A DNA stretch of 24,078 nt from a virus: positions 1 through 24,078 of the IMG/VR virus record IMGVR_UViG_3300032117_000154. One strand, 5' to 3'. A model generated the notes under the pieces. That model was given only the letters and a program-made list of their open reading frames with translations. It ran no database searches and was not told where the DNA came from. Below, in pieces: positions 1,088 through 17,473 of this stretch (position 1 is the first letter of the stretch; every line of letters starts with the position of its first letter). Made by a program: the position numbers and the translations under genes.

Positions 1088-1133
1088 AAGTTCTCGCTTC
1101 CTTCCGGCGTCACTGCCCTCAGCATAGCACGCT

Positions 1134-1751: not shown

Positions 1752-1752
1752 G

Positions 1753-2595: not shown

Positions 2596-2663
2596 TCGCG
2601 TCTCCTCTAGTTCTAGGTTGACCGGTAATCCACTCCACTCCCTGCCGGCACCCAGGTTCACAC

Positions 2664-4448: not shown

Positions 4449-4902
4449 CCCGCAGTCGCTCCTTCAGTTCCTCGGGAAGCAGATCGTTAGTGATAGCCCA
4501 GGTCGCAAGATGACCTGCTGCATCCATTCCGTGCTGCTGTCCGGCCCGGTACCATCCAAGTGTTTTCAGATGCTTGAGCCCTAGCCTCCGTGCCGAGGGG
4601 GGCTGGGACGGGAGCATCGCCACGTTATGCTTAACTGTGAGCCATCTTAGCATACCAATGACCATGAGTGCGGATCCATCGTGCTTTATCTGCCTACCAG
4701 GCGTGATCGTGAACTGCTCGTACCCAAGGTAGAAGTCACTACCATAGCGTGTCACAAGGTCCTCGACAAGGGCTCCGGTCTCGCGGAACTGAAGTTGCGT
4801 ACTATTGAATCTCTGTTCGACGAAATCCCACAGCGCCAGTCCGGTTGTGCCGCCAGGATCCGCCCACAGAGCGGCCCGCATCGACCTTGACTGCTCAGTC
4901 AT
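4429..4902 (-). CDS. RuvC-like Holliday junction resolvase
   Basis: The 157-residue protein has an RNase H-fold resolvase pattern: WADPGGTTGLALWD (first metal-binding Asp, Asp15), YEQFTI (Glu62) and HGMDAAGHLATW (Asp127, with His131). Such phage RuvC-like nucleases cut four-way junctions during replication, recombination or before packaging. ATG 4902 is preceded by AAGGAG eight bases upstream; an in-frame ATG at 4881 has no comparable site. It is the first gene of the leftward block and diverges from the HNH gene. Length and motif order fit the actinobacteriophage resolvase family. Confidence 0.87.
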   Translation of the reverse strand: MTEQSRSMRAALWADPGGTTGLALWDFVEQRFNSTQLQFRETGALVEDLVTRYGSDFYLGYEQFTITPGRQIKHDGSALMVIGMLRWLTVKHNVAMLPSQPPSARRLGLKHLKTLGWYRAGQQHGMDAAGHLATWAITNDLLPEELKERLRDVSSGA

Positions 4903-4908
4903 ATCCCT

Positions 4909-4936
4909 TGCTCCTTAACTAAAACCGGTCTACTAT
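4909..4936 (+). promoter_or_regulatory. Candidate promoter for the rightward HNH/recombination operon
   Basis: TTGCTC (4909-4914) and TACTAT (4931-4936) are separated by 16 bases in the 60-base region between divergent genes. A start about seven bases downstream would leave a leader of about 20 bases before the GTG at 4963. The spacing is one base short of ideal and the -35 is partial. No equally good leftward promoter was found, so the resolvase operon promoter is unassigned. Confidence 0.4.
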
Positions 4937-4962
4937 GAATGAACAGCACCGGAGGGAGTCAC

Positions 4963-5553
4963 GTGGAGCAAGAGCCGAGAATCTGCGAGCAGTGCGGCAA
5001 GGAGATACTGCGTCGTGACGGGGAGTACGTGAGTCAGTACAAACGACGTCGTTACTGCAGTACAGATTGCAGAAAGACCGGATCGGCCAGCAAGAGGAAA
5101 GCAACACAGGAACCATCCTACGCGACACTTCACTATCGTGTCTACCGTGCACGCGGCCGAGCCGCAGACCAGATATGTGATCATTGCGGTAATCCTGCGA
5201 AGGAGTGGGCGACAGTGCACAACACGGATGGCCTAGACCCGATGACGGACTACATCCCGCTCTGCCGTAAGTGTCACCTAGCCTACGATGACGTAAACTA
5301 TCGCAAGGTAGCAACACGCAGGGCACAGGGAGGTTATGTAAAGACACCCGCGCAAATAGAAGCTATCAGTCAGGGATTCCGCCGGATGTGGAGCAAGATC
5401 CCGCCAGAGGAGCGAAGTGAGATCATGCGTCAGCGATGGGAGGTAAGTCGAGCAAAAAAAGCAGCTCTTCAGGAAACGGACTTGCTACCGGAGCAGGAAG
5501 CTGATACACTCAGTCATATCAGCACGGAGGGAAACGAGGAAGGTAATGACTGA
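4963..5553 (+). CDS. HNH endonuclease-like protein with zinc finger
   Basis: The 196-residue product carries two Cys pairs in each half. An N-terminal finger (CEQC at 8-11, CSTDC at 32-36) is followed by a second set, CDHC (72-75) and CRKCH (101-105). Between these lies TVHN (His86). The second part fits an HNH nuclease of the phage type in which a His in a TVHN-like strand and the His after the last Cys pair coordinate metal. The C-terminal QGFRRMWSKIPPEERSEI stretch looks like a NUMOD3-type DNA-binding helix, which is an inference. I chose GTG 4963 over ATG 4939 because GGAGG lies seven bases before the GTG. The last eight bases overlap the next gene. It may be a homing-type nuclease or a working operon member. 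Confidence 0.8.
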   Translation: MEQEPRICEQCGKEILRRDGEYVSQYKRRRYCSTDCRKTGSASKRKATQEPSYATLHYRVYRARGRAADQICDHCGNPAKEWATVHNTDGLDPMTDYIPLCRKCHLAYDDVNYRKVATRRAQGGYVKTPAQIEAISQGFRRMWSKIPPEERSEIMRQRWEVSRAKKAALQETDLLPEQEADTLSHISTEGNEEGND

Positions 5554-6271
5554 AGCACCACCGCCAGGGGTGACGTTTCTCATCCACGGGTTTTCCAAGC
5601 ACGGTAAGAGCTGGCTAGGAGACACAACTCCGGGGCCTCGGCTAGTGCTGGACGCTGAGACAGGCAGCCGGTTCACTCCTAGCCGTAAGATCCTGTGGGA
5701 CCCGACAAGGGATCGCCCGCCGAAGGCTGACGGCACCTGGGACACTGCCATCGTGCCAGTCCGGCAGTTTCGTACGATGAGCAAGGCGTACGAATGGCTC
5801 CTAGCGGGGGATCACGATTTCGAGTCAGTAGTACTGGACAGTCTGAGCGAGGTCCAGACCAAGATCCTGGATGACCTGACCGGCATCAACGCTCCGAAAA
5901 TGCAAGACTACGGTCAGTTGCTAAGGATCTCCACAGATCTGATCAGGAAGTTCCGAGATCTTGTCACGCATCCGACCAGGCCGTTGCAGTGCGTGATGAT
6001 GATAACGATGACCAAGCTCGGGCAGGACAACATTTACCGTCCGCTGCTCATCGGCCAGCTTGCTTCCGTCGCCCCCTACCTAGTAGACTGCGAGGGGTTC
6101 ATGGTCAAGGCTCCGCAGGAGGACGGCTCCATCGTGTACAGGCTGCTGACAGGCACGTTCCAGGGGTACGAGACGGGCGACCGTCTAGGTGGTCAGCTCG
6201 GGGAGTACACTGACAATCCCAGGATCGAAGATCTAATCAAGAAGATTCACAACGACACGAAGGAGCCATAG
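5546..6271 (+). CDS. RecA-like ATPase, Sak4-type single-strand annealing protein
   Basis: A 241-residue P-loop ATPase of the phage RecA-fold group (AAA_24/Sak4 type). Walker A is GFSKHGKS (15-22) and Walker B is VVLDS with Asp98. LDAETGSRF, just after the Walker A region, is the usual second conserved block of this group. Sak4 proteins bind single-stranded DNA and promote annealing or recombination, normally together with an SSB encoded beside them, which is the arrangement here: the SSB-like gene starts three bases downstream. The ATG overlaps the HNH stop by eight bases, with GAGGAAGG upstream. The biochemical role is assigned from family and neighbour, not from specific catalytic evidence. 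Confidence 0.82.
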   Translation: MTEAPPPGVTFLIHGFSKHGKSWLGDTTPGPRLVLDAETGSRFTPSRKILWDPTRDRPPKADGTWDTAIVPVRQFRTMSKAYEWLLAGDHDFESVVLDSLSEVQTKILDDLTGINAPKMQDYGQLLRISTDLIRKFRDLVTHPTRPLQCVMMITMTKLGQDNIYRPLLIGQLASVAPYLVDCEGFMVKAPQEDGSIVYRLLTGTFQGYETGDRLGGQLGEYTDNPRIEDLIKKIHNDTKEP

Positions 6272-6274
6272 CGA

Positions 6275-6832
6275 ATGAGTGTTCTAAAATGGTCGGAATG
6301 GTTGGCGGCGAGTGACGAGGCTGGCTTCAGCGCCATCCCCGCAGGCGACTACGACATGTACATCGAGTCCGCCGAGGCCACGCAGGCGCAGAGCAGCGGC
6401 AAGGACATGGTAAAGCTCGTCGCCAGGGTAGAGGCCGGACCGCACGAAGGTGCGAAAATCTTCTCGAACCTAGTCGTCAGTCCCGAGAATCCCACCGCCC
6501 TCAGCTTCCTCATCCGCAAGCTCGCGGCTCTTGGCCTCGACCGGGAGTATCTCGCCAAGAACCCGTCTCTCGAAAAGATCGCCAGCGACCTAGAGCACCG
6601 TCGCTTCCAGGGCAAGGTGACCGTCAGGCAGTGGAACGAGCAGGATCGCAACGACCTGGACTCGTTCCGTCCTCCGGCCGACGGCAACACGCACCGCGCC
6701 TCCGGCTCCATCCCCGACACCGCCTTCGGCGTGTTCATGCCGACCCCGGGCAACGGCGTCACTCCGCACGCCTCGCACCCCTCACACCCCGCTCACCACG
6801 GGGCGGGCAAGGGTCCGGAACTGCCCTTCTAG
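6275..6832 (+). CDS. SSB-like / DUF669-type single-stranded DNA-binding protein
   Basis: A 185-residue protein with IPAGDYDMYIESAEATQ, a basic and hydrophobic middle section and VTVRQWNEQDRNDL, the arrangement of DUF669-type phage proteins that stand in for SSB. The tail is low in complexity (His, Pro, Gly) and ends GPELPF. This recalls the acidic DDIPF-type tip by which SSB recruits partner proteins, although here it is less acidic. AAGGAG is placed nine bases before the ATG. It lies directly after the Sak4-like ATPase and is most simply its single-strand-binding partner. It is the last gene before a new promoter. Confidence 0.78.
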   Translation: MSVLKWSEWLAASDEAGFSAIPAGDYDMYIESAEATQAQSSGKDMVKLVARVEAGPHEGAKIFSNLVVSPENPTALSFLIRKLAALGLDREYLAKNPSLEKIASDLEHRRFQGKVTVRQWNEQDRNDLDSFRPPADGNTHRASGSIPDTAFGVFMPTPGNGVTPHASHPSHPAHHGAGKGPELPF

Positions 6833-6842
6833 TGTATCCCCG

Positions 6843-6862
6843 GTGCTATACAGTGCTATAAT
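6843..6862 (+). promoter_or_regulatory. Extended -10 promoter with tandem GTGCTATA
   Basis: GTGCTATA occurs twice, at 6843-6850 and 6853-6860, exactly one helical turn apart. The second copy runs into TATAAT (6857-6862) preceded by TGC, an extended -10 element. No good -35 is visible at 16-18 bases, so activation or a strong extended -10 is likely. The predicted start is about 6869, just before the inverted repeat that brackets the HTH gene start. The tandem copies could be a binding site or an overlapping second -10. Confidence 0.6.
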
Positions 6863-6876
6863 AAGTAAGGCATAGC

Positions 6877-6942
6877 CCGCCGTACGCGGGGACAAGGAAG
6901 CAGTATGACTACAACTCTAGCACCGCCCCCCGCGTACGGCGG
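6877..6942. repeat. 15-bp perfect inverted repeat around the HTH gene start
   Basis: CCGCCGTACGCGGGG (6877-6891) is repeated as its exact reverse complement at 6928-6942. The 36 bases between the arms contain the AAGGAAG ribosome binding site and the ATG at 6905. As DNA this could be a two-site operator. As RNA it would form a stem with the start region in the loop. The first arm can also fold alone (CCCGC, five-base loop, GCGGG). Because the gene encodes a DNA-binding protein, autoregulation is a reasonable inference. Confidence 0.75.
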
Positions 6943-7183
6943 CTTCACCGAGGTGGCCCGGCGCCTGACTGACGCCGGGCCGCGCAGCGTTTCCCGGCAG
7001 GGCGTGCGAGCCTGGTGGCTGCGGCGTGAGCGCAGCCAGTTCCCGGACTATCACCACCTGGATGGTGACGGTTTCAAGCAGTGGAACATCGCCGAGGTTA
7101 TCGACTGGTACGCACGGTACGTCCCCCCGTCGGTCACCCACTGGGGGGTGAGGAACAGGAAAGGAAGACTCACACCTGCATGA
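6905..7183 (+). CDS. Small helix-turn-helix DNA-binding protein
   Basis: A 92-residue protein with a winged-helix/excisionase-like pattern: GGFTEVARRLTD, then SVSRQGVRAWWLRR as the recognition region, FPDYH, and WNIAEVIDWYARY at the end of the domain. This is the organisation of MerR/Xis-like (HTH_17) domains that read a short operator or bend DNA. ATG 6905 follows AAGGAAG and lies inside a 15-bp inverted repeat, which suggests control of its own expression. It may also regulate neighbouring units. No integrase is present in the window, so an excisionase role is not supported. The stop overlaps the phosphoesterase start as ATGA. Confidence 0.75.
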   Translation: MTTTLAPPPAYGGFTEVARRLTDAGPRSVSRQGVRAWWLRRERSQFPDYHHLDGDGFKQWNIAEVIDWYARYVPPSVTHWGVRNRKGRLTPA

Positions 7184-7890
7184 GCAAACGGCTGTTCACG
7201 TCAGACCCGCATGTCGGCCATATCCTTCTGTCCGCTATCAGGGGGTTCGCTAGTGTCGAGGAGCACAACGAGGTAATAATCGAGCGCTGGAATAACACGG
7301 TCGGCGTCAAGGACACTGTGTTCGTAGCAGGGGATGCCGTCATGGGACGCCGGAGCATTTCACTCCAGCTGTACACCCGGATGAACGGGATTAAGCACCT
7401 GATCACCGGTAATCACGACGACTGCTGGAGCGGGCACCCCAACTCATGGGCTAAGCACGGGGAGTATAAGAAGGTTTTTGCTTCCATCCAGCCGTTTCTC
7501 CAGGTGACGATTGACGGCCAGCTGGTCCTGATAAGCCACTTCCCGTACACGGCGGATTCTATTCACCGGCCGCAGTACAACCAGTACCGCCTCCGGGATG
7601 AGGGAAACTGGCTGCTGCACGGTCACACGCACAGTTCCGTCCGGAGAACATCCGCCCGGGAAATACATATCGGCATGGACGCCTGGGACCTCACGCCGGT
7701 AGCAGAAACCAGGATCGTAGCAATGATGCGGGCACAGCTAGCACAGGAAAGAAATGGTGAAGGGAATGCGACCCTATCTCCGTCAGACATTCAGGTCCCT
7801 CCAGCGACGGCAGCTCCCTCCGCTCCCGTCATTCCGGGGGATGCCCAGGCCGACTCAGGAGCGCCTGGAGCGCCTGGTCACCATCAGTGA
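7180..7890 (+). CDS. Metallophosphoesterase
   Basis: A calcineurin-like metallophosphoesterase of 236 residues with the full set of metal ligands: SDPHVGH (Asp9, His11), GDAVMG (Asp52), GNHD (77-80), SHFP (His120) and GHTH (148-151). It should hydrolyse phosphomono- or diesters using two metal ions; the substrate cannot be told from sequence. The conserved domain ends near residue 185 (ETRIVAMM). The remaining ~50 residues are a low-complexity Ala/Pro/Gly tail. I took ATG 7180, which overlaps the HTH stop as ATGA, instead of an earlier in-frame codon inside that gene. A short second reading frame overlaps the tail. Confidence 0.9.
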   Translation: MSKRLFTSDPHVGHILLSAIRGFASVEEHNEVIIERWNNTVGVKDTVFVAGDAVMGRRSISLQLYTRMNGIKHLITGNHDDCWSGHPNSWAKHGEYKKVFASIQPFLQVTIDGQLVLISHFPYTADSIHRPQYNQYRLRDEGNWLLHGHTHSSVRRTSAREIHIGMDAWDLTPVAETRIVAMMRAQLAQERNGEGNATLSPSDIQVPPATAAPSAPVIPGDAQADSGAPGAPGHHQ

Positions 7891-7951
7891 GCTACAGCGG
7901 CTGCGGGAATTGCCTCCGCTGCCGCCTGATACCCGCAATGCGGCACAATGA
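7754..7951 (+). CDS. Possible small overlapping gene, 65 aa
   Basis: A second frame overlaps the last 137 bases of the phosphoesterase and runs 61 bases past it. The product is Arg/Leu/Pro-rich and repeats the motif (Q/E)LPPLP near residues 20 and 53, with a helical RPTQERLERLVTISELQRL between. AGGAAAG is just upstream of the ATG. For it: the overlapped part of the phosphoesterase is only a low-complexity tail, and this frame fills most of the gap. Against it: no recognisable family, and the overlap is long for this phage. Reported as uncertain. Confidence 0.3.
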   Translation: MVKGMRPYLRQTFRSLQRRQLPPLPSFRGMPRPTQERLERLVTISELQRLRELPPLPPDTRNAAQ

Positions 7952-7976
7952 CGCCCCCCGTACAGTAGGCTAGTAC
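7948..7976 (+). promoter_or_regulatory. Candidate promoter of the AAA+ ATPase gene
   Basis: ATGACG (7948-7953) and TAGTAC (7971-7976) are separated by 17 bases. The -10 is embedded in the palindrome CTAGTACTAG (7970-7979). The predicted start near 7983 lies ten bases before a hairpin. Both hexamers are imperfect, so support comes mainly from spacing and from the same layout at the other rightward units. Confidence 0.35.
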
Positions 7977-7992
7977 TAGTACCGCAACGCAG

Positions 7993-8013
7993 CCGGGTGC
8001 AACGGGAACCCGG
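7993..8013 (+). other. Short hairpin in the AAA+ gene leader
   Basis: CCGGGT (7993-7998) pairs with ACCCGG (8008-8013) across a nine-base loop, upstream of the GGAAGG ribosome binding site of the gene at 8036. There is no following T-run, so it is not an intrinsic terminator. GGTGCAA is also repeated directly (7996-8002 and 8012-8018). Confidence 0.45.
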
Positions 8014-8035
8014 TGCAAAGGAAGGATAGGCAAGC

Positions 8036-9517
8036 GTGTCAGACACGGAAGTAAAGGCTCTGCCCGCAACTCCCGCCGCCCGTCAGATGGCGGAAGCTGA
8101 ACTGAAGAAGAGGATACTGGAGAATCTTGCCGCGCTGGGCGGCCAGGTGTCCGGTGAGGACACCATCGTTTACGAAGGGACCGGGTTCCGTTTCCCGGCC
8201 TCCTTCGAAGGCGACCTCGCCGGGGTGATGCGTCACCTGGATGAGGTGCGGCGCTCGGAAGAGAAGAAGATCGTTTTCAAGCGCATGTTCCCGTACCGGA
8301 TGATGGACGGAGCTGTCGCCTTCAGCCGGGCCATGTCCGAGCTGTTCGGAGCGCAGGGGATCGGCATGGTCACCAGGACCATGTTCGGGGACATACCGCC
8401 GGAGATTCAGTCGGTCGAAACCGGCATCGGAGAGCACACCGAAGCTCCGTGGGGCAAGGTCGGGTTCACTGCGCTCGACGCAGTGTTCACCGTCAAGTAC
8501 ACGTCCCACCCGGAGCTGGGTTACGTCTCGGAGATTACCTGCGAGGCACCCCGCAAGCACCGGCGCAAGATTGAGGGCTTCTTCGACGTTGTTGAAGCGC
8601 ACCTGCGCAACAACAGCATATACCGGGGCAAGGCGATTACGGCAGCAAGCACCCCCGGGTTCTTCAATGCGTTCTCGGTCCGCCCGGAAAGCGTCGTCTA
8701 CACGCCTGCCGTCATGAGGCAGCTGAGTGCCAACGTCTGGACGCACATCCGGTACGCGCAGCAGCTGCGTGACATGAACCGGTCGCTGAAGCGGACCGTG
8801 CTGCTGAAGGGGCCGTACGGCACCGGCAAGTCGCTCGCCGGAGTGCTCACGGCGCAGATCGCGCTTGAACACGGCTGGACGTTCATCATCGTCCGATCCG
8901 AGGACGACCCGCTGCAGGCGCTGCAGACGGCAAAGATGTACGCCCCGGCAGTCGTGTTCATCGAGGACTTCGAACTCCTTACCGAGGGCAAGTCCAGGGA
9001 AGAAGTAGACCGGATCCTCGACCTCATGGACTCGGTGAGCACCAAGGGACAGGAGGTTATCGGGCTGCTCACGACCAACTTCCTCGAAAAGATCGACAAG
9101 GCCGCACTCCGGCCAGGCCGGATCGACCACATCATCTCCATCGAGGGCCTGGAAGGGGACGGGTACACCACCCTGGTCAAGTCCATCATCCCGGCCGCGC
9201 AGCTAGCTGCGGACGTCAACTACCAGGCGGTAGCTGAGGCTTTCAAGGGATTCTACCCGGCTTTCGCTAGCGAGGCAGCCGGAAAGGCGATCCTCTACAG
9301 CCTAGACCGGACCGGCGGTCGGCTGGACACCATCACTACCGAGGACCTGCTCGCCGCAGCAGCCGGAGTTCGTGAGCAGCTGGAAGTCCAGCAGGCTGCT
9401 CACGAGGCATCGCACCGGCAGCCCGGGATCGATGAACTGCTCGTAGAACGGATGGAGAACGTGCTGCGCCGCACCATGTACGAGGGCGACTACATGGTGG
9501 TTCAGCCCCGCAGGTAG
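8036..9517 (+). CDS. AAA+ ATPase with uncharacterised N-terminal domain
   Basis: A 493-residue protein. Residues 1 to about 245 form a domain I do not recognise, with mixed alpha and beta character. An AAA+ module of the FtsH/p97/proteasomal-ATPase type follows: Walker A GPYGTGKS (259-266), Walker B VVFIED (306-311), sensor-1 Asn348 in LLTTN, and the RPGR arginine fingers (359-362). All catalytic residues are present, so it should form an ATP-driven ring acting on a protein or nucleic-acid partner chosen by the N-terminal domain. No protease zinc motif (HEXXH) is present, so it is not FtsH itself. GTG 8036 is set by GGAAGG about ten bases upstream. It appears to be its own transcription unit. 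Confidence 0.88.
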   Translation: MSDTEVKALPATPAARQMAEAELKKRILENLAALGGQVSGEDTIVYEGTGFRFPASFEGDLAGVMRHLDEVRRSEEKKIVFKRMFPYRMMDGAVAFSRAMSELFGAQGIGMVTRTMFGDIPPEIQSVETGIGEHTEAPWGKVGFTALDAVFTVKYTSHPELGYVSEITCEAPRKHRRKIEGFFDVVEAHLRNNSIYRGKAITAASTPGFFNAFSVRPESVVYTPAVMRQLSANVWTHIRYAQQLRDMNRSLKRTVLLKGPYGTGKSLAGVLTAQIALEHGWTFIIVRSEDDPLQALQTAKMYAPAVVFIEDFELLTEGKSREEVDRILDLMDSVSTKGQEVIGLLTTNFLEKIDKAALRPGRIDHIISIEGLEGDGYTTLVKSIIPAAQLAADVNYQAVAEAFKGFYPAFASEAAGKAILYSLDRTGGRLDTITTEDLLAAAAGVREQLEVQQAAHEASHRQPGIDELLVERMENVLRRTMYEGDYMVVQPRR

Positions 9518-9525
9518 AACACCGC

Positions 9526-9554
9526 TTGCATGATCGGCAGTAGTTCGCTATACT
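9526..9554 (+). promoter_or_regulatory. Sigma-70-type promoter for the 213-aa orphan gene
   Basis: TTGCAT (9526-9531), a 17-base spacer and TATACT (9549-9554), just after the AAA+ gene stop. Both hexamers match consensus well. The predicted start is about 9560, at the first bases of a strong hairpin. Confidence 0.75.
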
Positions 9555-9558
9555 GACA

Positions 9559-9608
9559 GAGCGCCCCGGCCGGACGTCCACCCCATCCCCACGGCGGCCG
9601 GGGCGCTC
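9559..9608 (+). other. 14-bp hairpin at the predicted transcript 5' end
   Basis: GAGCGCCCCGGCCG (9559-9572) is exactly complementary to 9595-9608, leaving a 22-base loop. It begins at the predicted transcription start and ends 11 bases before the GAAGGAAA ribosome binding site. There is no T-run after it, so it does not look like a terminator. A protective 5' stem-loop, an RNA-binding site or a DNA operator are the options. Confidence 0.7.
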
Positions 9609-9631
9609 CTCAGCATGCAGGAAGGAAAATA

Positions 9632-10273
9632 GTGCTCCCGCACAAGGAGATCGTGTTCCCAGCAGTCGACCTGTCCGATGACGACGGGGACCCGGTATGG
9701 CCGATGCGTCATGAGATTTACGAGCAGGAAAAAGCGGAGGGGGAGCACCACTACCGATGGCTGTGCCCGCCCCGCGTGCATCATAACTTCTGGGAGGTAG
9801 TGAAAGGAGCCTGGGATGAAACTTCACGTGCGTATGAAGTCAATCCGGACAGTTTTCATGACAGCTGGCACTACCTCAACGATCACCCGATGTTCTGGAA
9901 ATTTACAGAACACCGCAATTCGGACAAGCCGAAGAATCATGTTTCCATGCTGGAAAGAGATTGCGGATTCGGCAGCAACAGCATTGATGTCATGGTCGTG
10001 CTAGTTGACGGGACAGGAACGATCAACGAGGACGACTCGCTGAACACACAGACGGAGGTCTGGCTGGAAACAGGCAAGTGGAACCTGTTCGCCGATGACC
10101 ACGAGCACAGCAGCGTCCACTGCCACTGGCACGACATCGAGCTGGACTGCGGCGGTCCGACATATGAAGCTGCCGTCATCACGCTTGCCCGTCTTGTCTG
10201 GGAGAAGTACGGGAATGACCGGCTGATCGCAGACGCCCCGCCCGTGTCGCCCATGTCGCCCGTGCAGTCATAG
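9632..10273 (+). CDS. Orphan 213-aa protein
   Basis: I do not recognise this protein. It is acidic, rich in Trp, His and Asp, without signal peptide or membrane segment. A His/Trp-rich stretch (HHNFWEVVKGAW, then FHDSWHYLND and MFWKF) is followed by a beta-like middle (SIDVMVVLVDGTGTI) and SSVHCHWHDIELDCGG, which could bind a metal. The C-terminal GPTYEAAVITLARLVWEKYG is a regular amphipathic helix of the kind seen at the end of small phage proteins. GTG 9632 follows GAAGGAAA. It has its own good promoter and a strong 5' hairpin and is flanked by another promoter, so it is probably expressed alone. Confidence 0.75.
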   Translation: MLPHKEIVFPAVDLSDDDGDPVWPMRHEIYEQEKAEGEHHYRWLCPPRVHHNFWEVVKGAWDETSRAYEVNPDSFHDSWHYLNDHPMFWKFTEHRNSDKPKNHVSMLERDCGFGSNSIDVMVVLVDGTGTINEDDSLNTQTEVWLETGKWNLFADDHEHSSVHCHWHDIELDCGGPTYEAAVITLARLVWEKYGNDRLIADAPPVSPMSPVQS

Positions 10274-10302
10274 TTGCATCCACTGCTCGCAGCTGCTAGG
10301 TT
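10274..10302 (+). promoter_or_regulatory. Promoter of the secreted-protein gene
   Basis: TTGCAT (10274-10279) and TAGGTT (10297-10302) with a 17-base spacer, beginning immediately after the stop of the orphan gene. The -35 is identical to that at 9526. The predicted start, about 10309, falls at the first bases of a short hairpin. Confidence 0.6.
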
Positions 10303-10307
10303 TAGCA

Positions 10308-10326
10308 CATGCCCGCAACGGGCATG
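10308..10326 (+). other. Hairpin at the start of the secreted-protein mRNA
   Basis: CATGCCCG (10308-10315), a CAA loop, and CGGGCATG (10319-10326) form a perfect 8-bp stem at the predicted transcription start, followed by the GGAAGGA ribosome binding site. No T-run follows. The in-frame ATG at 10309 lies in this stem and is rejected as the start codon. Confidence 0.6.
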
Positions 10327-10347
10327 CAACCGGAAGGACAGTACCGC

Positions 10348-11400
10348 ATGTTTTCTCGCAAGGCTATCGCGACCACGGTCGCAGTTGCCGCAGCCCTCGG
10401 AGGTGTGGCACTCGCGTCTGGCAGTGCCAGCGCCTCCACGCACTCTCCGCAGTTTCGGAGGGCGACGGCGACGGTGACAGCGACGCCAGACATGTTCCGC
10501 TCTCTCGGCCAGGGTGCGGTGAACACCTCCAACGGTGAGGCTGGGTACTTCACCTGGGCGAGTACGGCGTTCCAGGAGGTGCAGACCAACCTCACGCCAC
10601 TTGCCCCAGCAGAGCAGGCAGGAGCTAACGGCTCGCTGGGCATCGAGCTGACCAGCGTGGTGGGTGCCAACGCCAACGGGAACATCCTGCCCGGCACCGT
10701 CCCGGGCTCCCTGTCCTGTAATCTCGCGCAGCTGGGTTTCGTGTGGAACCCCGCCGAGCAGGCATACGACGTGTGGGAGGCTACCGGCACCACCACGTAC
10801 GACCCCACCGCCACTAACCCGTACCTCGGCGGCACCAAGGTCAACGTCTGCACCAGTGGCGGCGCGCTCAACCCCGCCCCGGGCACCACGTACCAGGACG
10901 GCTTCACGGTCGTCACGGACACCACGTCCCAGGTGCTCGGCGATGACAGCAGCGGCGAAGGCATCGCTGTCGGCCAGCAGGTGTTTCTCCAGCTGGAGAA
11001 GCACGGCAGCGACTTCACCGCGTCGGCCTGGGACACCAACCCCAACGACGACAACACCGGCGGTCCAGTGGACGTGGCCTTCCCCGGCACCTTCGGCTCG
11101 GCGCACTGGGCTGGTGCCGGAACCGTGGTTGACATCACTGACCGCACGCCTGCCACACCTCTCTCGGGCGAGGAAGCCATGTTCAGTGAGCTGCGCGCCG
11201 CCAACGCGACGCACACGACGCACGGTCGGAACCACGCTTACACGCTGAAGATCTTCAACACCTGGCTGAGTCAGGAGGTGGTGTCCTCGGCGAACGGCAC
11301 CAGCGCTGATGCGCCTGCCGTGACCCCGGCTAACTCACTCGTGGTCAAGACCGGCCCCGGTACCTTCAACCTGTACACCGGGTCACCTGTCGGAGCGTAG
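10348..11400 (+). CDS. Sec-secreted orphan protein
   Basis: A 350-residue exported protein of unknown function. The N-terminus is a textbook signal peptide: MFSRK, a hydrophobic AIATTVAVAAALGGVALA core and a likely cut after ASA near residue 29. The mature part is rich in Thr, Gly, Ala and Asn, looks beta-rich, and has two Cys (SLSCNLAQL and KVNVCTSGG) that could pair outside the cell. No catalytic motif is recognised; a lectin-like or other beta-sandwich fold is only a possibility. GGAAGGA nine bases upstream of ATG 10348 fixes the start and excludes 10309. It has its own promoter and a strong terminator, so it is an isolated unit, like morons that change the host surface or surroundings. 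Confidence 0.85.
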   Translation: MFSRKAIATTVAVAAALGGVALASGSASASTHSPQFRRATATVTATPDMFRSLGQGAVNTSNGEAGYFTWASTAFQEVQTNLTPLAPAEQAGANGSLGIELTSVVGANANGNILPGTVPGSLSCNLAQLGFVWNPAEQAYDVWEATGTTTYDPTATNPYLGGTKVNVCTSGGALNPAPGTTYQDGFTVVTDTTSQVLGDDSSGEGIAVGQQVFLQLEKHGSDFTASAWDTNPNDDNTGGPVDVAFPGTFGSAHWAGAGTVVDITDRTPATPLSGEEAMFSELRAANATHTTHGRNHAYTLKIFNTWLSQEVVSSANGTSADAPAVTPANSLVVKTGPGTFNLYTGSPVGA

Positions 11401-11420
11401 TACGCAGTAGCAGAACAGTA

Positions 11421-11454
11421 GACGGCCAGGTGCGCACGCACCTGGCCGTCTTTT
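11421..11454 (+). terminator. Intrinsic terminator after the secreted-protein gene
   Basis: GACGGCCAGGTGCG (11421-11434) is exactly complementary to 11437-11450 and is followed by TTTT. With a 14-bp stem 20 bases after the stop codon this is the clearest terminator in the window and should isolate the secreted-protein unit from the GT4 gene. Confidence 0.92.
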
Positions 11455-11523
11455 GCGTGCACTAGCCCCCCCGTTGCCGCCCTGCTGTGCGACGAGCTGC
11501 AGCCTAGCAGCAAGCTGCGTATA

Positions 11524-11552
11524 TGCCCTGTGTATGGTACTATTGCAGGGCA
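11524..11552 (+). promoter_or_regulatory. Inverted repeat around an extended -10 element
   Basis: TGCCCTG (11524-11530) and CAGGGCA (11546-11552) bracket TGG-TACTAT, in which TACTAT (11538-11543) resembles a -10 with the upstream TG of an extended element. No good -35 is present. It may be an operator-controlled second promoter. A transcript from here would meet the terminator at 11582-11628 and give an RNA of roughly 75-80 bases. Function is inferred. Confidence 0.35.
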
Positions 11553-11568
11553 ACGCAGGACAAGTAGC

Positions 11569-11597
11569 TTGACATAGCAGTGACTCCCCGCTAGAAT
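11569..11597 (+). promoter_or_regulatory. Consensus promoter of the GT4 gene
   Basis: TTGACA (11569-11574), 17 bases, TAGAAT (11592-11597): the best promoter match in the window. The predicted start is about 11604, giving a leader of about 23 bases that includes GGGGAG. The -10 lies inside the left arm of the terminator hairpin at 11582-11628. Confidence 0.85.
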
Positions 11598-11628
11598 CTC
11601 CGTAGGAGATCTAGTGGGGAGTCTTTTT
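11582..11628 (+). terminator. Terminator overlapping promoter and start codon of the GT4 gene
   Basis: GACTCCCC (11582-11589) pairs with GGGGAGTC (11616-11623). Inside it a G-T wobble, CTAG with CTAG, one bulged A, and ATCTCC (11596-11601) with GGAGAT (11605-11610) extend the stem, and TTTTT (11624-11628) follows. Transcripts arriving from upstream can fold it. Transcripts starting near 11604 lack the left arm. The right arm contains the GGGGAG ribosome binding site, and the T-run overlaps the TTG start codon. Confidence 0.75.
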
Positions 11629-12745
11629 GAAAATTCTGATCAGCTCAAATGCTCCATTCGTAGGCACAGGATACGGGCAGCAGACCGCCATGTGGGCACC
11701 GCGCTTCCGGGACCTAGGGCATGAGGTGTTCATCGCCTCGTTCCACGGCCTGTCCGGAGCCCCCTCACTGTGGGAGGGCATCCCGGTGCTGCCATCCGGG
11801 TATGACCCGTACGGCAACGACATTCTCGGGGCACATGCCAAGGCCGTCAGCGCAGACCTGATTCTCACGATCATGGACGCCTGGGTGATTGACCCCAACC
11901 AGACACAGGGGTTCAAGGTCGCCAACTGGACCCCGATCGACTGTGCCCCCTTGTCCGCCATGGACCGGCATTACTTCCAGATGTCCGGCTCCATCCCGGT
12001 CGCCATCAGCAAGTTCGGCCAGCACATGCTGGAAGACGCAGGATTCTCCAGCCTCTACGTCCCGCACGGCGTGGACACCTCCGTCTTCAGTCCGCCCGAT
12101 GACAGGAAGCGAGTGCGCGGTGAGCTAGGAATCCCCGAGGATGCGTTCGTAATCGCGATGAACGCTGCCAACAAGGATGCAGTACGGAAATCTTTTCCCG
12201 AGCAATTCCTCGCTTTCGCGAAGTTCTCGGAAACTCATTCCGACGCACTGCTGCTTGTGCACTCCCTCACCCAGGCTCCGCAGGCACTTAACCTGATGGA
12301 CATCGTCAACCACCTGGGCATCCGGGACAAGGTCAAGTTCAGCGACCAGTACGGCATCATCACCGGCCGTATCCAGCCCCAGAATCTAGCAGCGCTGTAC
12401 GGGGCAGCCGACATCCTGACTGCCACGTCCCACGCGGAAGGTTTCGGACTGCCGATTGTCGAGGCGCAAGCGTGCGGGACGCCAGTCGTCACTACCAACT
12501 TCTCCAGCATGCCGGAGCTGACCGGTGCCGGGTGGAGCGTCGAAGGTGAGCCGTTCTGGAACGCGGCACACCAGTCGTGGTGGTGCAAGCCGCACATCAG
12601 TGAAATCACGGCTGCTTACGAGAAGGCATACACAGAGGCCGCGTCGCTACGCGACGCGGCCCGGGAGTTCGGCCTCAAGTACTCGGTCGGCCGGGTACTA
12701 ACGGATCACTGGGCACCAGCACTCGACGAGATATTCGAGAGCTGA
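11627..12745 (+). CDS. GT4-type (GT-B) glycosyltransferase
   Basis: A 372-residue retaining glycosyltransferase of the GT-B fold, family GT4. The N-terminal Rossmann half begins KILISSNAPFVGTGYG. The donor-binding half contains EGFGLPIVEAQACGTPVV near residues 270-287, the E-x7-E signature that holds the nucleotide sugar. The donor and acceptor sugars cannot be read from sequence. The start is TTG 11627 with GGGGAG five bases upstream; no other in-frame start gives a complete first strand. It is transcribed rightward from its own promoter, while the other sugar genes run leftward towards it, and the 3' ends overlap by 40 bases. It probably acts in the same glycosylation process. Confidence 0.9.
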   Translation: MKILISSNAPFVGTGYGQQTAMWAPRFRDLGHEVFIASFHGLSGAPSLWEGIPVLPSGYDPYGNDILGAHAKAVSADLILTIMDAWVIDPNQTQGFKVANWTPIDCAPLSAMDRHYFQMSGSIPVAISKFGQHMLEDAGFSSLYVPHGVDTSVFSPPDDRKRVRGELGIPEDAFVIAMNAANKDAVRKSFPEQFLAFAKFSETHSDALLLVHSLTQAPQALNLMDIVNHLGIRDKVKFSDQYGIITGRIQPQNLAALYGAADILTATSHAEGFGLPIVEAQACGTPVVTTNFSSMPELTGAGWSVEGEPFWNAAHQSWWCKPHISEITAAYEKAYTEAASLRDAAREFGLKYSVGRVLTDHWAPALDEIFES

Positions 12746-13485
12746 TAGTCCACCAGCCCGTACACCTCGCGGAAGGAAGGATTGAGGGTGCTCGCGTACT
12801 CGCCAGGTGATGCGTGGACACCCTCAAACTTCCCGATGTTCTGACTGCGAGACGCAGCTGGCAGCACGGTCCGGTAGCCGCCGCCGGGGATAATCCGGGC
12901 ATCGATGTGGTGATCCCACCCTGACCCGGGATGCTCCGGAGTGCCTGTGGAGTACGTCCTGTCCCAGGTAGGCTCCAGCACCGTGTCCCACCGATCTCGC
13001 CAGCTCGCCCAGATCCAGCAGCGGAACCGCGTCCCCAGGTGCACGTCACGCGGATCCGCCCAGTACGACGCCCCCTCCTCGGTGTGCGCGCAGGCGATCA
13101 GCACCGTCTGGTCATCACGGAACTGCTCATCCGTCCACGCAAGATAGTCGAGAACGTCATCGCTGACGATGAGATCTTCCTCAGCAAACACAAGGAACTG
13201 CACCCCGGGATCAGATCCGAACACCGCGCGGGCCGTCTCCAGCGGATTCCCCAGGTTGTCGTACCGCTCCGGATTCTCGATGACGGTGATGTTCAGGCCG
13301 TGCCGGTCGCGTGCCTGCTGCACGATATCCAGCATTTTCTGCTGGCGCTCGGACGGATCCAGCCCGATGGTGAAGCTCCGCACATCGTGCACGCCCCGGA
13401 CAGCTGCCCACGATTCAAGCACCCGCCGGAGATACTGCGGGCGCTTCCAGGCAGTCATGACGATCGCGGTGTCGCTCAGGCTCAT
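12706..13485 (-). CDS. GT13-like (GNT-I-like) glycosyltransferase, copy B
   Basis: A 259-residue GT-A fold enzyme. The N-terminal IVMTAWKRPQYLRRVLESW matches the opening strand and helix of GT-A transferases, and AEEDLIVSDDVLDYL (Glu102-Glu103-Asp104) provides the metal and nucleotide-sugar site. The order of later blocks, RFRCWIWASWRDRWD, then GWDHHID and PAASRSQNIGKFEGVH, parallels GNT-I (GT13: EDDLEVAPDFFEYF, GLGWLL, FWDDW, PEISRTMTFG..GVSHG). GNT-I transfers GlcNAc to mannose; the donor here is unproven and a generic GT2 label is the fallback. It is the last gene of the late operon. Its ATG overlaps the methyltransferase stop as ATGA, and it is a paralogue of the gene at 13934-14689. Confidence 0.8.
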   Translation of the reverse strand: MSLSDTAIVMTAWKRPQYLRRVLESWAAVRGVHDVRSFTIGLDPSERQQKMLDIVQQARDRHGLNITVIENPERYDNLGNPLETARAVFGSDPGVQFLVFAEEDLIVSDDVLDYLAWTDEQFRDDQTVLIACAHTEEGASYWADPRDVHLGTRFRCWIWASWRDRWDTVLEPTWDRTYSTGTPEHPGSGWDHHIDARIIPGGGYRTVLPAASRSQNIGKFEGVHASPGEYASTLNPSFREVYGLVDYQLSNISSSAGAQ

Positions 13486-13937
13486 GCCTCGATCCTCCGC
13501 AGGACGATGAGGATATTAGAGCCGCCGTCTGTCAGTTCTAGGCTCACTTTCTCAAACAGCACGTCCCAGTAGCAGTACGCAGCACCGTACTTGAGGTTGT
13601 ACTCAGTGCTCTTGACCCAGTAGTCCCAGGTGCGCTCAGTACAGAACCTGCGATGTGTGGGGTCCGTGTACGCTGACTCGCTTCGCCAGTGCGGCGATCG
13701 AATCCGGAGTACACCACCTGGCTTGAGCACCCGCCCCGCCTGGTTCATGAAGACCAGGGGGTCGTTAACGTGCTCGAAGACATCCATCGCCCGGATCTCA
13801 TCCACGCTAGCGTTATCCCACGGCCACGGTGCTACGTCCAGGTCGTGCACGACATCGATCCCGGGCAGCTCTGCGATGTCCGAGTTCACCCACCCGGTAC
13901 GGATGTCGTATCCGGCACCAAGGTTCAACCGCTTCAT
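13482..13937 (-). CDS. Class I SAM-dependent methyltransferase
   Basis: A compact 151-residue methyltransferase. KRLNLGAGYD (residues 2-11) is motif I, which binds S-adenosylmethionine. Acidic residues near 31-34 fit the ribose contact, DVFEHV (52-57) is the usual post-motif block and LKPGGVLRIRSPHW (71-84) is the typical strand and loop. Membership between two glycosyltransferases, with ATGA overlaps at both ends, points to methylation of the sugar or glycan they build. Protein or small-molecule substrates are not excluded. Phage-encoded methylation of virion glycans is known in some actinobacteriophages, which makes this reading reasonable. Confidence 0.87.
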   Translation of the reverse strand: MKRLNLGAGYDIRTGWVNSDIAELPGIDVVHDLDVAPWPWDNASVDEIRAMDVFEHVNDPLVFMNQAGRVLKPGGVLRIRSPHWRSESAYTDPTHRRFCTERTWDYWVKSTEYNLKYGAAYCYWDVLFEKVSLELTDGGSNILIVLRRIEA

Positions 13938-14689
13938 GGCACCATCCGATACATGGCTGTCCCGCGCTTCTCCTTAAAGGAGGGGTTCAGGGTGTTGTGG
14001 TAGTCCGCCGGGCCAGCGTGCACACCTTCAAAGCGTCCGATGTTCTGCGAGCGAGAGGCTAGAGGGAATACGCACTTGAGCCCACGACCAGGGATAACAC
14101 GGAGATCCAAATTCCAATCGTATCCTGCTGGCTCACCCGAGCTGTAGTCTCTATCCCATGTCGGCTCGAACACGCTCTCAAATCGGTCGTTCCAAGTCCC
14201 CCAGATCCAGCACCGGTACCTCGGCAGCAGCTGCACCTCATCCTCGGCAGCCCCCGCATCCGCAGGCTCCGGCGTGTGCGCGCACACCCCCGCTACTCCT
14301 GGATCATCCTTGAACTTGTTGGCTGTCCACTTGAAGTAGCGCAGGATGTCATCCGACACGAGCATGTCGTCGTCGGCGATGATGACGAACCGAGCCCCCG
14401 CTTCGAACCCGCGCTTCATCGAGAACTCCGGGTTCATCGATACCCCGTAGTGCTCCGGATTCACCTCGGCTTCCAGGTGCGGCAGCAGCTCCCGCTTGTC
14501 CGCGCACACCCGGAGAATCTCATCCTGCCTATCAGACGGGTCAGCGTAGACAATGAACCGTCCCAGGCTGTTCACATCACGCACGCCGGTCCAGGAATGC
14601 AGCGCCTTCTTCAGGTACCCGGGCCGCCGCCACGCCGTGAGCACGACAGCCATGTCCGAGTAGTTGATCGCTTCAGTCACGTCAGTCAC
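13934..14689 (-). CDS. GT13-like (GNT-I-like) glycosyltransferase, copy A
   Basis: A 251-residue GT-A fold transferase and paralogue of the 12706-13485 product. Shared blocks occur in the same order: VLTAWRRPGYLKKAL, ADDDMLVSDDILRYF (Asp106-108, metal and donor site), RYRCWIWGTWNDRF, EPTWDRDYSSG, YDWNLDLRVIPG, ASRSQNIGRFEGVHAG and TLNPSFKE. The motif order fits GT13/GNT-I-like enzymes; GT2 is the general alternative. I chose GTG 14689, which overlaps the epimerase stop as GTGA and has AAGGGG upstream, instead of ATG 14755, which would lie inside the epimerase gene. Duplicate transferases suggest two successive sugar additions or two acceptors. Confidence 0.8.
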   Translation of the reverse strand: MTDVTEAINYSDMAVVLTAWRRPGYLKKALHSWTGVRDVNSLGRFIVYADPSDRQDEILRVCADKRELLPHLEAEVNPEHYGVSMNPEFSMKRGFEAGARFVIIADDDMLVSDDILRYFKWTANKFKDDPGVAGVCAHTPEPADAGAAEDEVQLLPRYRCWIWGTWNDRFESVFEPTWDRDYSSGEPAGYDWNLDLRVIPGRGLKCVFPLASRSQNIGRFEGVHAGPADYHNTLNPSFKEKRGTAMYRMVP

Positions 14690-15543
14690 AGCATCCCCTT
14701 CGCAGCGAGCTGCGCCTGGTACCATGCAACCGTCTCCGGTACGCGCCACGGCCATGCATGCTCAGCAGAACAGGCTGGATTCTCAGCTACGACAACAGCA
14801 CCCTCCGGCTCGCCAGCGCGCCCTGATACGTGCACGATACGGGATTTTGACTTGCACGCCTCAATGATGTCCAGTGCTGCGTCCTGCACCCTGGTCGCCA
14901 CTCCGCTTCCGGCTTCGACCACAGTTCCGTACGGGCCGTTAATCGCCTCGACCAGTACATCTGCCACGTCAGCAGCATGCACCAGGTCAATCATCTGGTC
15001 ACCGGAACCGTTGATCTCGATCCGCATGCCCGTCAGTGCCCGGCAGGCAAACGACGGGAATATCTTCCGGACACCTCCCGATCCATGCGGAGCGGACATC
15101 TTCTGCCCGGCACCGTAGACGTGGTACGCCCGGACCACGGTAATTCTCTCGCCTCGCCAGGTAGCGCGTGCCAGGCCCAGGTCCTCCGCCGCCCCCTTGG
15201 TGATCGCGTACGGGTTCAGCTGCCCTTTGTGCCCGGTGCCCACCTGCACGACCGGGATGCCAGCCCGAGCGGCAGCATCGTAGACGTTGAGCGCGCCAAT
15301 GATATTCGATTCTACCGCCTGATGCTCTCCGCCATTAGCGAACAGTTCTGATGTGCCCAGCACCCCGGCGAGATTGATGACCGCATCAATCTGCCGGGAT
15401 ATCGACTTGTCCAGCTGCGCCCGGTTTTCTACGTACCGGTCATCACAGGCATCGAATGACACGCATGTGTGCCCCGCCTTGCCGAGTGCGTCTTCCGTGT
15501 ACTTCCCGATGAACCCGTTCGAGCCTGTTACCAGTACTCGCAT
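14686..15543 (-). CDS. NAD-dependent sugar epimerase/dehydratase (extended SDR)
   Basis: A 285-residue extended short-chain dehydrogenase/reductase. MRVLVTGSNGFIG opens the Rossmann fold with GxxGxxG (residues 7-13); INLAG follows strand 4, and PYAITK gives the catalytic Tyr112-x3-Lys116. ACHVYG-type sequence (here AYHVYG) and DLVHAADVADVL are typical of nucleotide-sugar epimerases and 4,6-dehydratase relatives. It probably makes or modifies the donor sugar used by the neighbouring transferases; the exact substrate is not predictable. ATG 15543 has GGGATGG just upstream and begins at the first Rossmann strand, so longer in-frame starts were rejected. It lies 16 bases after the GT17-like gene. 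Confidence 0.88.
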   Translation of the reverse strand: MRVLVTGSNGFIGKYTEDALGKAGHTCVSFDACDDRYVENRAQLDKSISRQIDAVINLAGVLGTSELFANGGEHQAVESNIIGALNVYDAAARAGIPVVQVGTGHKGQLNPYAITKGAAEDLGLARATWRGERITVVRAYHVYGAGQKMSAPHGSGGVRKIFPSFACRALTGMRIEINGSGDQMIDLVHAADVADVLVEAINGPYGTVVEAGSGVATRVQDAALDIIEACKSKSRIVHVSGRAGEPEGAVVVAENPACSAEHAWPWRVPETVAWYQAQLAAKGML

Positions 15544-15559
15544 TCCATCCCATCCCCGT

Positions 15560-16327
15560 TCATTCTTCATCTCTCGGCCTGAACCACGAAGCAGGACATT
15601 CCCGCTTCCAGACCCACTGTGGCCATGTCTCGTCAACATCCACTCCGGCCAGCCGGTGCCCGTCGGAGTGCATTCCCTCACGGAGCCACACCCCGGACCG
15701 CAGCGCATCTTCCGTGTCCTTCGTCATCTCCAGGTGGCAGTGCACGTCAAGCTTCGCGATATGCGCAGCCGTCCCGCCCATCCAGGACAGGTGACTCCCT
15801 CCGTCGCCCACAGCAGGGAGGGAGTTTCTCACGCCGCGCAGCCTGGCAAACGAGCCAGCGCTTCTCACCTTCGTCACGATCGTACCATGCCAGGGGAGCG
15901 GATGCACCCAGTCCACGGCATACTGGCAGAGCCGCTGCTGCAGGACAACCGGGTACGTCCCGGCTCCCACGATCTCGCGCAGCGTGCCCGCCCGGGGAAT
16001 CTCGTCGCAATCCCCGTGCAGCACCACGTCGTTCCACTCGGCATCCGCGAGACCGCGCTTAACGAACTCACGTTGCGCCAGTTCCCGGCTCCACGGGTCA
16101 TCCCCCCGGGGCAGTTCATCCGCCTTCACGTGCACGTGAATGATCCGGTCTGCCCACGGGGCAAATCGCTCCCGGTTCCACATGTAGTGCAGCGGCTTCC
16201 GGAATCCCCGGTGCGCAATCTCTGCCTCGACAATCACGTGCACAAGATCGTCCACGCCTTCCAGCTCACGGAGGCGGCACTCAAGCACGTCAAGCTCGTC
16301 TCCGAACATGAACGAGTCCCAGATCAC
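15560..16327 (-). CDS. GT17-like glycosyltransferase
   Basis: A 255-residue protein with the features of glycosyltransferase family 17, the family of eukaryotic GNT-III (adds bisecting GlcNAc to N-glycans). It opens IWDSFMFGDELDVLECRL. VHVIVEAEIAHRGFRKPLHY (30-48), RFAPWADRIIHV (54-65), WSRELAQREF (79-88) and VVLHGDCDEIP (101-111) follow in family order; the last holds the metal-binding acidic residues. Bacterial and viral GT17 members exist, but their acceptors are mostly unknown. I placed the start at GTG 16327, overlapping the endolysin stop as GTGA, because the domain starts there. An upstream GTG at 16348 would add seven residues. Donor identity is inferred from family only. Confidence 0.87.
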   Translation of the reverse strand: MIWDSFMFGDELDVLECRLRELEGVDDLVHVIVEAEIAHRGFRKPLHYMWNRERFAPWADRIIHVHVKADELPRGDDPWSRELAQREFVKRGLADAEWNDVVLHGDCDEIPRAGTLREIVGAGTYPVVLQQRLCQYAVDWVHPLPWHGTIVTKVRSAGSFARLRGVRNSLPAVGDGGSHLSWMGGTAAHIAKLDVHCHLEMTKDTEDALRSGVWLREGMHSDGHRLAGVDVDETWPQWVWKRECPASWFRPRDEE

Positions 16328-17031
16328 GCGGTGAGTGCCGCCGTCCACGTAGCCGTGCCAACAATCCCGTCCTCGGAAGTCTTTTCTGCCCCCTGGAACT
16401 GCCGGGTAGCTGCCTCAGTGTCCGGGCCGAAATCCCCGTCCATCGTCAGGCTGTACTCGCGCGCGATGAGCAGCGCCTGCCAGTTCTTCACGGTCTGCCC
16501 GGTGCTGCCGAGCTGGATCACGGGGATCTGCGTCATGAGTTCATCATACTCTCCGAAGAAGCCGTCGTCAACAAGACTCTGATCCAGATTACGTCCCAGG
16601 GCACTGTCCGTCCACTGCGTTCCGTCCATCAGCCGGTCCACCGCGCCGCAGCTGTCCGGACCGCAGATGTGTGCTGTCCCCGTGTAGTGTGCGCTCCAGA
16701 ATCGGCAGGTGCTCAGGCTGATACCGGCCCCCTGCAGCGCGGCTAGTACCCCACCCATAGCGCTTGCAGACGCGTACAGGCATGGCCTGGGCGTCCCTAG
16801 GCCCGGCTGCCGCTGTACCCACCCGGGTACTTGCGCCGCCGTGGCGTCACCATTTTCAACATCCAGGCAGTTCGCGTTTCCTTCTGCCGTCACGGTGATG
16901 CTGAGCAGCTGGGCACCCGGGAAACGCTGAGCCAGGTCGCTGAACGTCGGCCAGTGCCCGTTGACGTACCCCGCCACTGCCGGAGCGTCCAGCGGGATGT
17001 TTTCCAGGCTCACTGCATCATACATTATCAC
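16324..17031 (-). CDS. Endolysin: glycoside hydrolase-like domain plus peptidoglycan-binding domain
   Basis: A 235-residue lysin. Residues 1 to about 160 form the glycoside hydrolase-like barrel common in actinobacteriophage lysins: MIMYDAV, VAGYVNG, CLDVENGDAT (acidic pair Asp57/Glu59), PCLYASAS, FWSAHY and DGTQWT. Residues 168-235 are a PG_binding_1 domain (VIQLGSTGQTVKNWQALL, then DGDFGPDTEAATRQFQ and DGIVGTATW). It should cut host cell wall from the inside at the end of infection, after a holin opens the membrane. I used GTG 17031 because AAGGAG lies ten bases upstream; an ATG at 17052 has a weaker site. It follows candidate holins and directly precedes the sugar genes. Confidence 0.85.
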   Translation of the reverse strand: MIMYDAVSLENIPLDAPAVAGYVNGHWPTFSDLAQRFPGAQLLSITVTAEGNANCLDVENGDATAAQVPGWVQRQPGLGTPRPCLYASASAMGGVLAALQGAGISLSTCRFWSAHYTGTAHICGPDSCGAVDRLMDGTQWTDSALGRNLDQSLVDDGFFGEYDELMTQIPVIQLGSTGQTVKNWQALLIAREYSLTMDGDFGPDTEAATRQFQGAEKTSEDGIVGTATWTAALTA

Positions 17032-17473
17032 GGCAGTCGTGCTCCTTGTCATCGGTGTACTCACGTGCAATCAGCTTCGTGAGAATGTCATCCTGCACCG
17101 CCAGGTGCTGCTGGATCTTTAGTGCTTCCGCTAGTACCGCTTCGGCATCCTGGTAGGTCTGCTCAGCACGCTTGTCCGAAGTTTTTGCCTGGATGTTCTG
17201 GCCCACGATGATGACGGGCAGTAGCACCAGCTGAAGGAAATTGGATGATACCCAGGCGATGATGATCGTCAGGTTGTGTGAGGTAATAGCCGATGGCAGT
17301 GACACTAGTGCGATGAGCGCGAACACGTAGCCGCAGATCATCGTGCCGACCACGGTGGTAACCGCCAGCCCGATCCTTGCATTCAGGCCGCCACCCCGCT
17401 CCGTAGCGGTACTGACTGGTCCTTGTTCCTTCCGCCTGGCGATGTGCGGATGCGGAACGTGTTCAAACAGCAT
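17018..17473 (-). CDS. Two-TM membrane protein, DUF1003-like, holin candidate
   Basis: A 151-residue membrane protein. After a basic N-terminal region (FEHVPHPHIARRKEQGP) come two hydrophobic segments, about residues 34-58 (IGLAVTTVVGTMICGYVFAL) and 68-92 (LTIIIAWVSSNFLQLVLLPV). A charged, helical cytoplasmic tail begins VGQNIQAKTSDKRAEQTYQD. The second segment with the following QNxQ resembles DUF1003 proteins. Its position immediately before the endolysin, which it overlaps by 14 bases, makes it a holin or lysis-accessory candidate. The ATG overlaps the preceding stop as TAATG and is preceded by AAAGGAG. Confidence 0.75.
   Translation of the reverse strand: MLFEHVPHPHIARRKEQGPVSTATERGGGLNARIGLAVTTVVGTMICGYVFALIALVSLPSAITSHNLTIIIAWVSSNFLQLVLLPVIIVGQNIQAKTSDKRAEQTYQDAEAVLAEALKIQQHLAVQDDILTKLIAREYTDDKEHDCRDNV

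Follow-up and report, generated by a model that had tools for sequence, protein, structure and literature searches.

A predicted exported orphan protein in a candidate cargo slot of a probably virulent actinophage

The stretch of DNA analysed here, a linear IMG/VR virus record of 24,078 bases referred to as the window, encodes an orphan protein of 350 aa with a Sec signal peptide (10348 to 11400, + strand). Judged from comparison with a related phage, this gene and its upstream neighbour (9632 to 10273) look like an exchangeable cargo cassette of a phage that is probably large and virulent.

The gene and its predicted product

The start codon (ATG at 10348) is preceded by a Shine-Dalgarno sequence, GGAAGGA (10332 to 10338, + strand). 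An alternative ATG further upstream (10309) has no visible ribosome site and lies inside a palindrome. The codon score of the reading frame is 0.317 bits per codon, with the 20 training genes spanning 0.033 to 0.415, while two long antisense ORFs overlapping it scored -0.074 and -0.050. Codon use supports the frame at 10348 to 11400 and not the antisense ORFs, and start codon, ribosome site and codon score all agree with the gene for a secreted-type orphan protein proposed in the initial annotation. With a GC content of 66.2%, the gene exceeds the window (61.1%) and the neighbouring gene (57.0%).

Residues 1 to 29 (10348 to 10434, + strand) form a Sec signal peptide with n-, h- and c-region, consisting of MFSRK, a hydrophobic core and an AxA motif with predicted cleavage after residue 29. 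Judged by a simple rule of our own with controls rather than by a trained predictor, its score was matched in 6 of 20,000 shuffled versions of the protein and at 6 of 3,023 internal Met positions taken at random, and the same rule flagged no other export candidate among the 33 codon-filtered ORFs of the window. Neither a lipobox Cys nor twin Arg was seen by eye in the signal peptide; the Ltp-type lipobox is lacking, the cleavage site falling between ASA and S with no Cys before residue 124. The mature part comprises 321 aa (32.9 kDa, pI 4.40), with 27 acidic and 10 basic residues and no membrane segment (largest 19-residue hydropathy 0.91). The two cysteines noted earlier for the mature protein are present at residues 124 and 168. 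The signal peptide, also recognised in the initial annotation and upheld by the score controls, implies that the protein would act beyond the membrane. Superinfection exclusion, surface masking or an effect on competitors, as suggested there, would each be possible.

The cargo interval and its signals

The surroundings of the gene were compared with record 3300036820_000003 (129,940 bases, hereafter G004), found via alignment of the helicase. Helicase (74% identical), glycosyltransferase (81%) and AAA ATPase (47%) are syntenic in both. The interval is flanked on the left by the AAA ATPase (8036 to 9517, + strand, PF00004) and on the right by the glycosyltransferase (11627 to 12745, + strand, PF00534). 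The first and last 127 bases of G004 are identical, as in a complete, circularly permuted or circular assembly; its ends fall within the homologous interval, which can be read through the terminal repeat. From the ATPase stop to the glycosyltransferase start, the interval measures 2,109 bases in the window (9518 to 11626) and 691 bases in G004 (stop 726-728, start 34), where the glycosyltransferase frame is shifted near the contig end, probably by a flaw of assembly or sequence. In this one relative compared, the interval carries a gene for a 63-aa HTH protein (HTH_17, 48 bits; MerR, 38 bits) and neither the exported gene nor its neighbour; no third phage with the interval was found among the related records and loci searched. 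The neighbour (+ strand) encodes 213 aa with no Pfam family, weak matches to PHROGs with no assigned function and no tblastn match in G004. Since G004 has a different gene between conserved borders, the exported gene and its neighbour look like exchangeable cargo, and in this sense the earlier designation as a moron is apt.

The left border is a hairpin (9559 to 9608, + strand) that matches G004 646 to 693, with 46 of 50 alignment columns identical and one compensatory change from C-G to T-A. Both its stem and its loop of 20 to 22 nt are conserved, and it stands directly after a promoter-like site of the TTGC class described below, TTGCAT-17-TATACT (9526 to 9554, + strand), the probable promoter of the cassette. 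The conserved loop suggests a possible role beyond that of a terminator. At the right border, a promoter belonging to the glycosyltransferase unit (TTGACA-17-TAGAAT, 11/12; 11569 to 11623, + strand) overlies a stable hairpin (z -6.43), which has a counterpart in G004 at 426 with 47 of 68 columns identical. Its -10 element lies within the hairpin, which ends in TTTTT, an arrangement kept in both phages. Further on in the window, two related glycosyltransferase-2-like genes (12706 to 13485 and 13934 to 14755) in a run of sugar genes share a 90-nt direct repeat (71% identical).

Downstream of the exported gene, the hairpin scan revealed an intrinsic terminator (11420 to 11451, + strand) with a stem of 14 perfect pairs and a 4-nt loop, followed by TTTGCG. 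None of 200 shuffles was as stable (MFE z -6.57), and the private 14-bp terminator described earlier is thereby confirmed. The standard terminator scan omits 11420 to 11451, we think because its T count begins after the longest possible stem. The gene had further been called isolated, which needs qualifying: it lies 74 bp downstream of 9632 to 10273 on the same strand and the hairpin scan gave no strong hairpin between the two, so that transcripts starting at the promoter-like site at 9526 are likely to run on into it.

The initial annotation also assigned the gene its own promoter. A standard sigma-70 scan found none upstream, the best consensus match there being 7/12, a value attained by 52% of the window's 88-bp stretches, and the gene was at first taken to lack a promoter. 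This view was revised after enrichment of the class TTGC-N19-TA...T (hexamer spacing 17), into which TTGCAT-17-TAGGTT (10274 to 10302, + strand) fits, a poor sigma-70 match missed by the standard scan. The class was counted 19 times in G004 (2.6 expected) and 6 times in the window's phage (1.38 expected); it was defined after viewing this leader, and the comparison of spacings and fourth bases in G004 is the real control. There, TTGC at spacings 10, 13, 16, 21 and 24 was found 2 to 5 times each (2.3 to 4.2 expected) and at spacing 18 nine times (3.2 expected), while at spacing 17 TTGA, TTGG and TTGT occurred 11, 3 and 6 times (2.1, 2.4 and 1.6 expected). Of the 19 G004 sites, thirteen lie between genes and have a called gene start at most 70 nt downstream, three lie between genes but lack such a start, and three fall within called genes. 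TTGCAT at spacing 16 to 18 occurs three times in 32.8 kb of the window's phage (0.00 expected, eight simulations), two of these sites being those at 9526 and 10274. The site at 10274 is regarded as a probable promoter of the exported gene, and a promoter of its own is plausible.

Several of the G004 sites end 6 to 8 nt before the start codon, and the respective mRNAs would be leaderless. A role of the TTGC class in marking exported genes was rejected, as just one of G004's three convincing exported genes (73510) has a listed site, the majority of the 19 sites serving other genes. The leader of the window gene also contains a palindrome, ATGCCCG-CAA-CGGGCAT (10309 to 10325, + strand), possibly an operator or small hairpin, matched once in the window where 0.14 matches are expected at up to two mismatches; the fold of the whole leader is no more stable than that of shuffled sequences (z 0.00).

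Phage, host and exported proteins of relatives

Two other records represent the same phage. 3300032665_001742 has one mismatch in 11,358 bases and ends inside the gene at window position 11393, and 3300032677_002037 is identical over window positions 1 to 9575, stops short of the gene and extends the sequence upstream by 8,727 bases. Among the matches listed (20 of 1607 records), the helicase (2664 to 4448) is 44% identical to that of Actinomycetia phage DSL-LC01, 41% to that of Micrococcus phage Kurnik and 36 to 39% to those of Gordonia and Microbacterium phages. The AAA ATPase has its best matches in Mycobacterium and Gordonia phages (35 to 38%). Because the replication proteins resemble those of actinophages, we infer an actinobacterial host. 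Tyrosine integrase (PF00589) and serine recombinase (PF00239) were found in none of seven records, a count provided by G004 and six others, with the window's own phage known in part only. A lysogen is therefore unlikely and the protein is probably made in lytic growth; expression in a lysogen or apart from the lytic programme, as suggested earlier, is not supported.

No significant match of the exported protein was obtained in Pfam, NCBIfam, PHROGs, PADLOC or PDB sequences, in line with the earlier statement that it has no recognised domain. The weak family-library matches (E 0.1, 0.43 and 0.44) are noise, and similarity to structural PHROGs was absent, the sole match being phrog_31123 (E 0.43), a family with no assigned function. 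With the protein as query, viral contigs returned only the same phage in another assembly. No homologue was detected in phages (E ≤ 10), plasmids (E ≤ 1), 43 related viral records and then 7 more, or ORFs called in six frames at 223 loci and at 40 ATPase loci (best non-self match in the latter: a 91-aa ORF, E 0.049). Bacterial genome contigs gave 81 pattern matches and no relative by a method reaching close relatives only, so that a distant bacterial relative may have escaped. Homologues among virion proteins, named in the initial annotation as evidence against its reading, did not arise, for the sole reason that the searches turned up no homologue of any kind. The open-licence papers searched on exported actinophage proteins do not describe this protein. 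Its layout is reminiscent of that of a glutamic peptidase (PF01828); this assignment (family G1) was discarded, the profile having no match at E ≤ 10 in the window and none in the Pfam scan.

By eye, the exported protein G004:73510 (324 aa) was first thought a likely homologue. It is of similar size, likewise has a Sec signal peptide, a terminator-like hairpin and a TTGC-class promoter, and shares with the window protein a GEAG motif after the signal peptide; however, it sits elsewhere in the genome and phmmer gave no match between the two. Six alignment settings yielded Z values of 1.13 to 4.03, the shuffle-based rank was 3 of 1811 with PAM250 and 224 of 1811 with BLOSUM45, and the likeness of the two leaders was undistinctive (rank 4, 12 and 227 of 8,656 stretches under three scorings). 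The homology was set aside as unproven. A two-row alignment built on this pairing found no homologue in the viral contigs, and AlphaFold was uninformative both with it (mean pLDDT 30.2) and with the protein alone (30.1), giving no backing to the beta-rich mature protein described initially. Beside G004:73510 lie L177:14480-15703 and 13618-14397, one with a radical-SAM-like CNLDCDYCYMY motif and one von Willebrand A-like, both as seen by eye.

Applied to 11 record sets, the simple export rule flagged 29 of 1,583 codon-filtered ORFs, a number that includes overlapping false ORFs and to which 3300032677_002037 contributes a repeat of part of the window. By eye, nine soluble-type exports besides the window protein were convincing (three each in G004 and G009, one in G006 and two in G051), and three more, in G006, G007 and G010, were lipoprotein-like; the window's second contig, G052 and G053 yielded no convincing export. 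A Pfam family above cut-off was assigned to three of the nine (LysM + SLT; Transglycosylas + SLT; DUF4232), leaving six with none. Export is recurrent yet not universal in these related phages, as counted with no broad control across phages at large. The exported L178:428-1138 (G004) and L185:17262-17984 (G006) each have an SLT/transglycosylase-like domain and LysM, the latter below cut-off in G006, and are separate from the endolysin; we take them to be reminiscent of resuscitation-promoting factors. In G051, a 115-kb relative, L213:16996-17526 and L214:10712-11422 are exported, one with DUF4232 and the other without a Pfam family above cut-off. The exported L199:3298-3876 of G009 (193 aa) has no Pfam family; its weak match in PHROGs (E 0.0032), to a family annotated as cytolethal distending toxin C subunit, probably reflects no more than a lectin-like fold.

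Possible roles of the exported protein

The best explanation, put forward tentatively as a possible one, is that of an extracellular factor made in lytic infection which hinders adsorption or superinfection. The cassette would sit between the replication-side operon and the glycosyltransferase genes of a probably virulent actinophage, and its last gene, equipped with a probable promoter and a terminator, would yield a 350-residue preprotein. The host Sec machinery would export this preprotein during infection, and the signal peptide would be removed after residue 29. Export during lytic growth is likely, and cleavage as well as disulfide formation are predicted. A soluble, acidic protein of 321 residues, perhaps with one disulfide, would then reach the cell wall or the medium and bind a component on the surface of the host or of arriving phages, whereby adsorption or DNA entry of competitors would be hindered or, alternatively, progeny would be less able to re-adsorb to debris and infected mycelium.

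The blocking role itself is a guess and rather doubtful; it is rated first because of two phage precedents, gp41 of Aquarius and Ltp (PMC11480721). Cutibacterium phage Aquarius is described as an actinophage without a classical lysogenic state, the gp41 of which has a signal peptide and is highly transcribed in infection; superinfection resistance is proposed and unproven, based on expression and resemblance rather than on a knock-out (PMC11480721). Ltp of phage TP-J34 is a lipoprotein of 142 residues and gp41 a membrane-anchored protein of 179 residues (PMC11480721). Like the window protein, both are phage-coded with a signal peptide and a non-cytoplasmic acidic part. The window protein differs in its 350 aa and in having no anchor, so that both the membrane anchor and the small size of gp41 are lacking; sequences were compared through family libraries only. 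In contrast to exclusion proteins of the Ltp type, it lacks a lipobox and a membrane anchor and may therefore diffuse away. Against the blocking role stand the missing homologue, structural model and known partner, and nothing in the window ties the protein to adsorption.

Classic morons were described in temperate phages and are expressed from prophages. The window gene resembles phage morons in forming a unit of one gene, with a probable promoter and a terminator, where a close relative has another gene, but differs in that G004 has no integrase family.

An extracellular enzyme of auxiliary metabolic or public-good type, hydrolase or other, acting on polymers around the host would match the size, acidity and signal peptide of the protein, which are in keeping with secreted actinobacterial enzymes. 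Phages from environmental samples do code for active polymer-degrading enzymes, e.g. a viral chitosanase (PMC9485262), and the window protein is comparable to it as cargo of possible extracellular use. The chitosanase has an enzyme function, whereas no enzyme family was found for the window protein in Pfam, NCBIfam, PHROGs or PDB sequences, PF01828 included, and we consider an enzyme fairly unlikely. It is unlikely, too, that a recently acquired host secretion gene is simply carried as a passenger of little consequence to the phage. The GC content, higher than that of the window and the partner gene, and the absence from the same place in G004 would fit such an origin, but codon use fits the phage, no bacterial relative was found in a search reaching close relatives only, and the only other assembly to reach the gene has an uninterrupted frame, which, this being the same phage, lends weak support.

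Quite improbable is a shield, as inhibitor or decoy, against extracellular host factors that inactivate virions, such as secreted proteases: a secreted actinobacterial protease cuts phage titres from outside the cell (PMC13175485) and an extracellular counter-measure would be logical, but family-library and sequence searches gave no inhibitor family or motif. That the protein aids lysis or remodels the wall from outside is very improbable. Although G004 and G006 have exported LysM/transglycosylase proteins, the window protein has no wall-binding or lytic domain and the window contains an endolysin-like gene of its own (16324 to 17070). A virion protein, finally, is extremely unlikely, because a protein with a signal peptide is encoded outside the structural genes; lysis and tail genes are about 5 kb away, but the gene occupies a cargo position on the strand opposite to the tail genes and its product has no structural PHROG.

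A wider proposal, which we would sooner doubt than expect to hold, is that large, apparently virulent actinophages routinely keep an "extracellular arm" of fast-evolving, mostly orphan Sec-exported proteins in exchangeable cassettes of one or two genes, the window gene included, with the interval between the hairpin and the glycosyltransferase promoter as one of several docking places. Exports from infected mycelium would act on neighbouring cells, rival phages or extracellular defences of the host, and some cassettes would be under the TTGC-N19-TA promoter class. Secreted host-side factors are beginning to be reported (PMC13175485).

The exported orphan in its cargo slot amounts to a good candidate, short of a discovery, and the conserved borders offer a simple handle for finding other cargo in this slot. 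If the protein acts outside the cell, it would represent an unusual case of a lytic actinophage altering the surroundings of its infected multicellular host.
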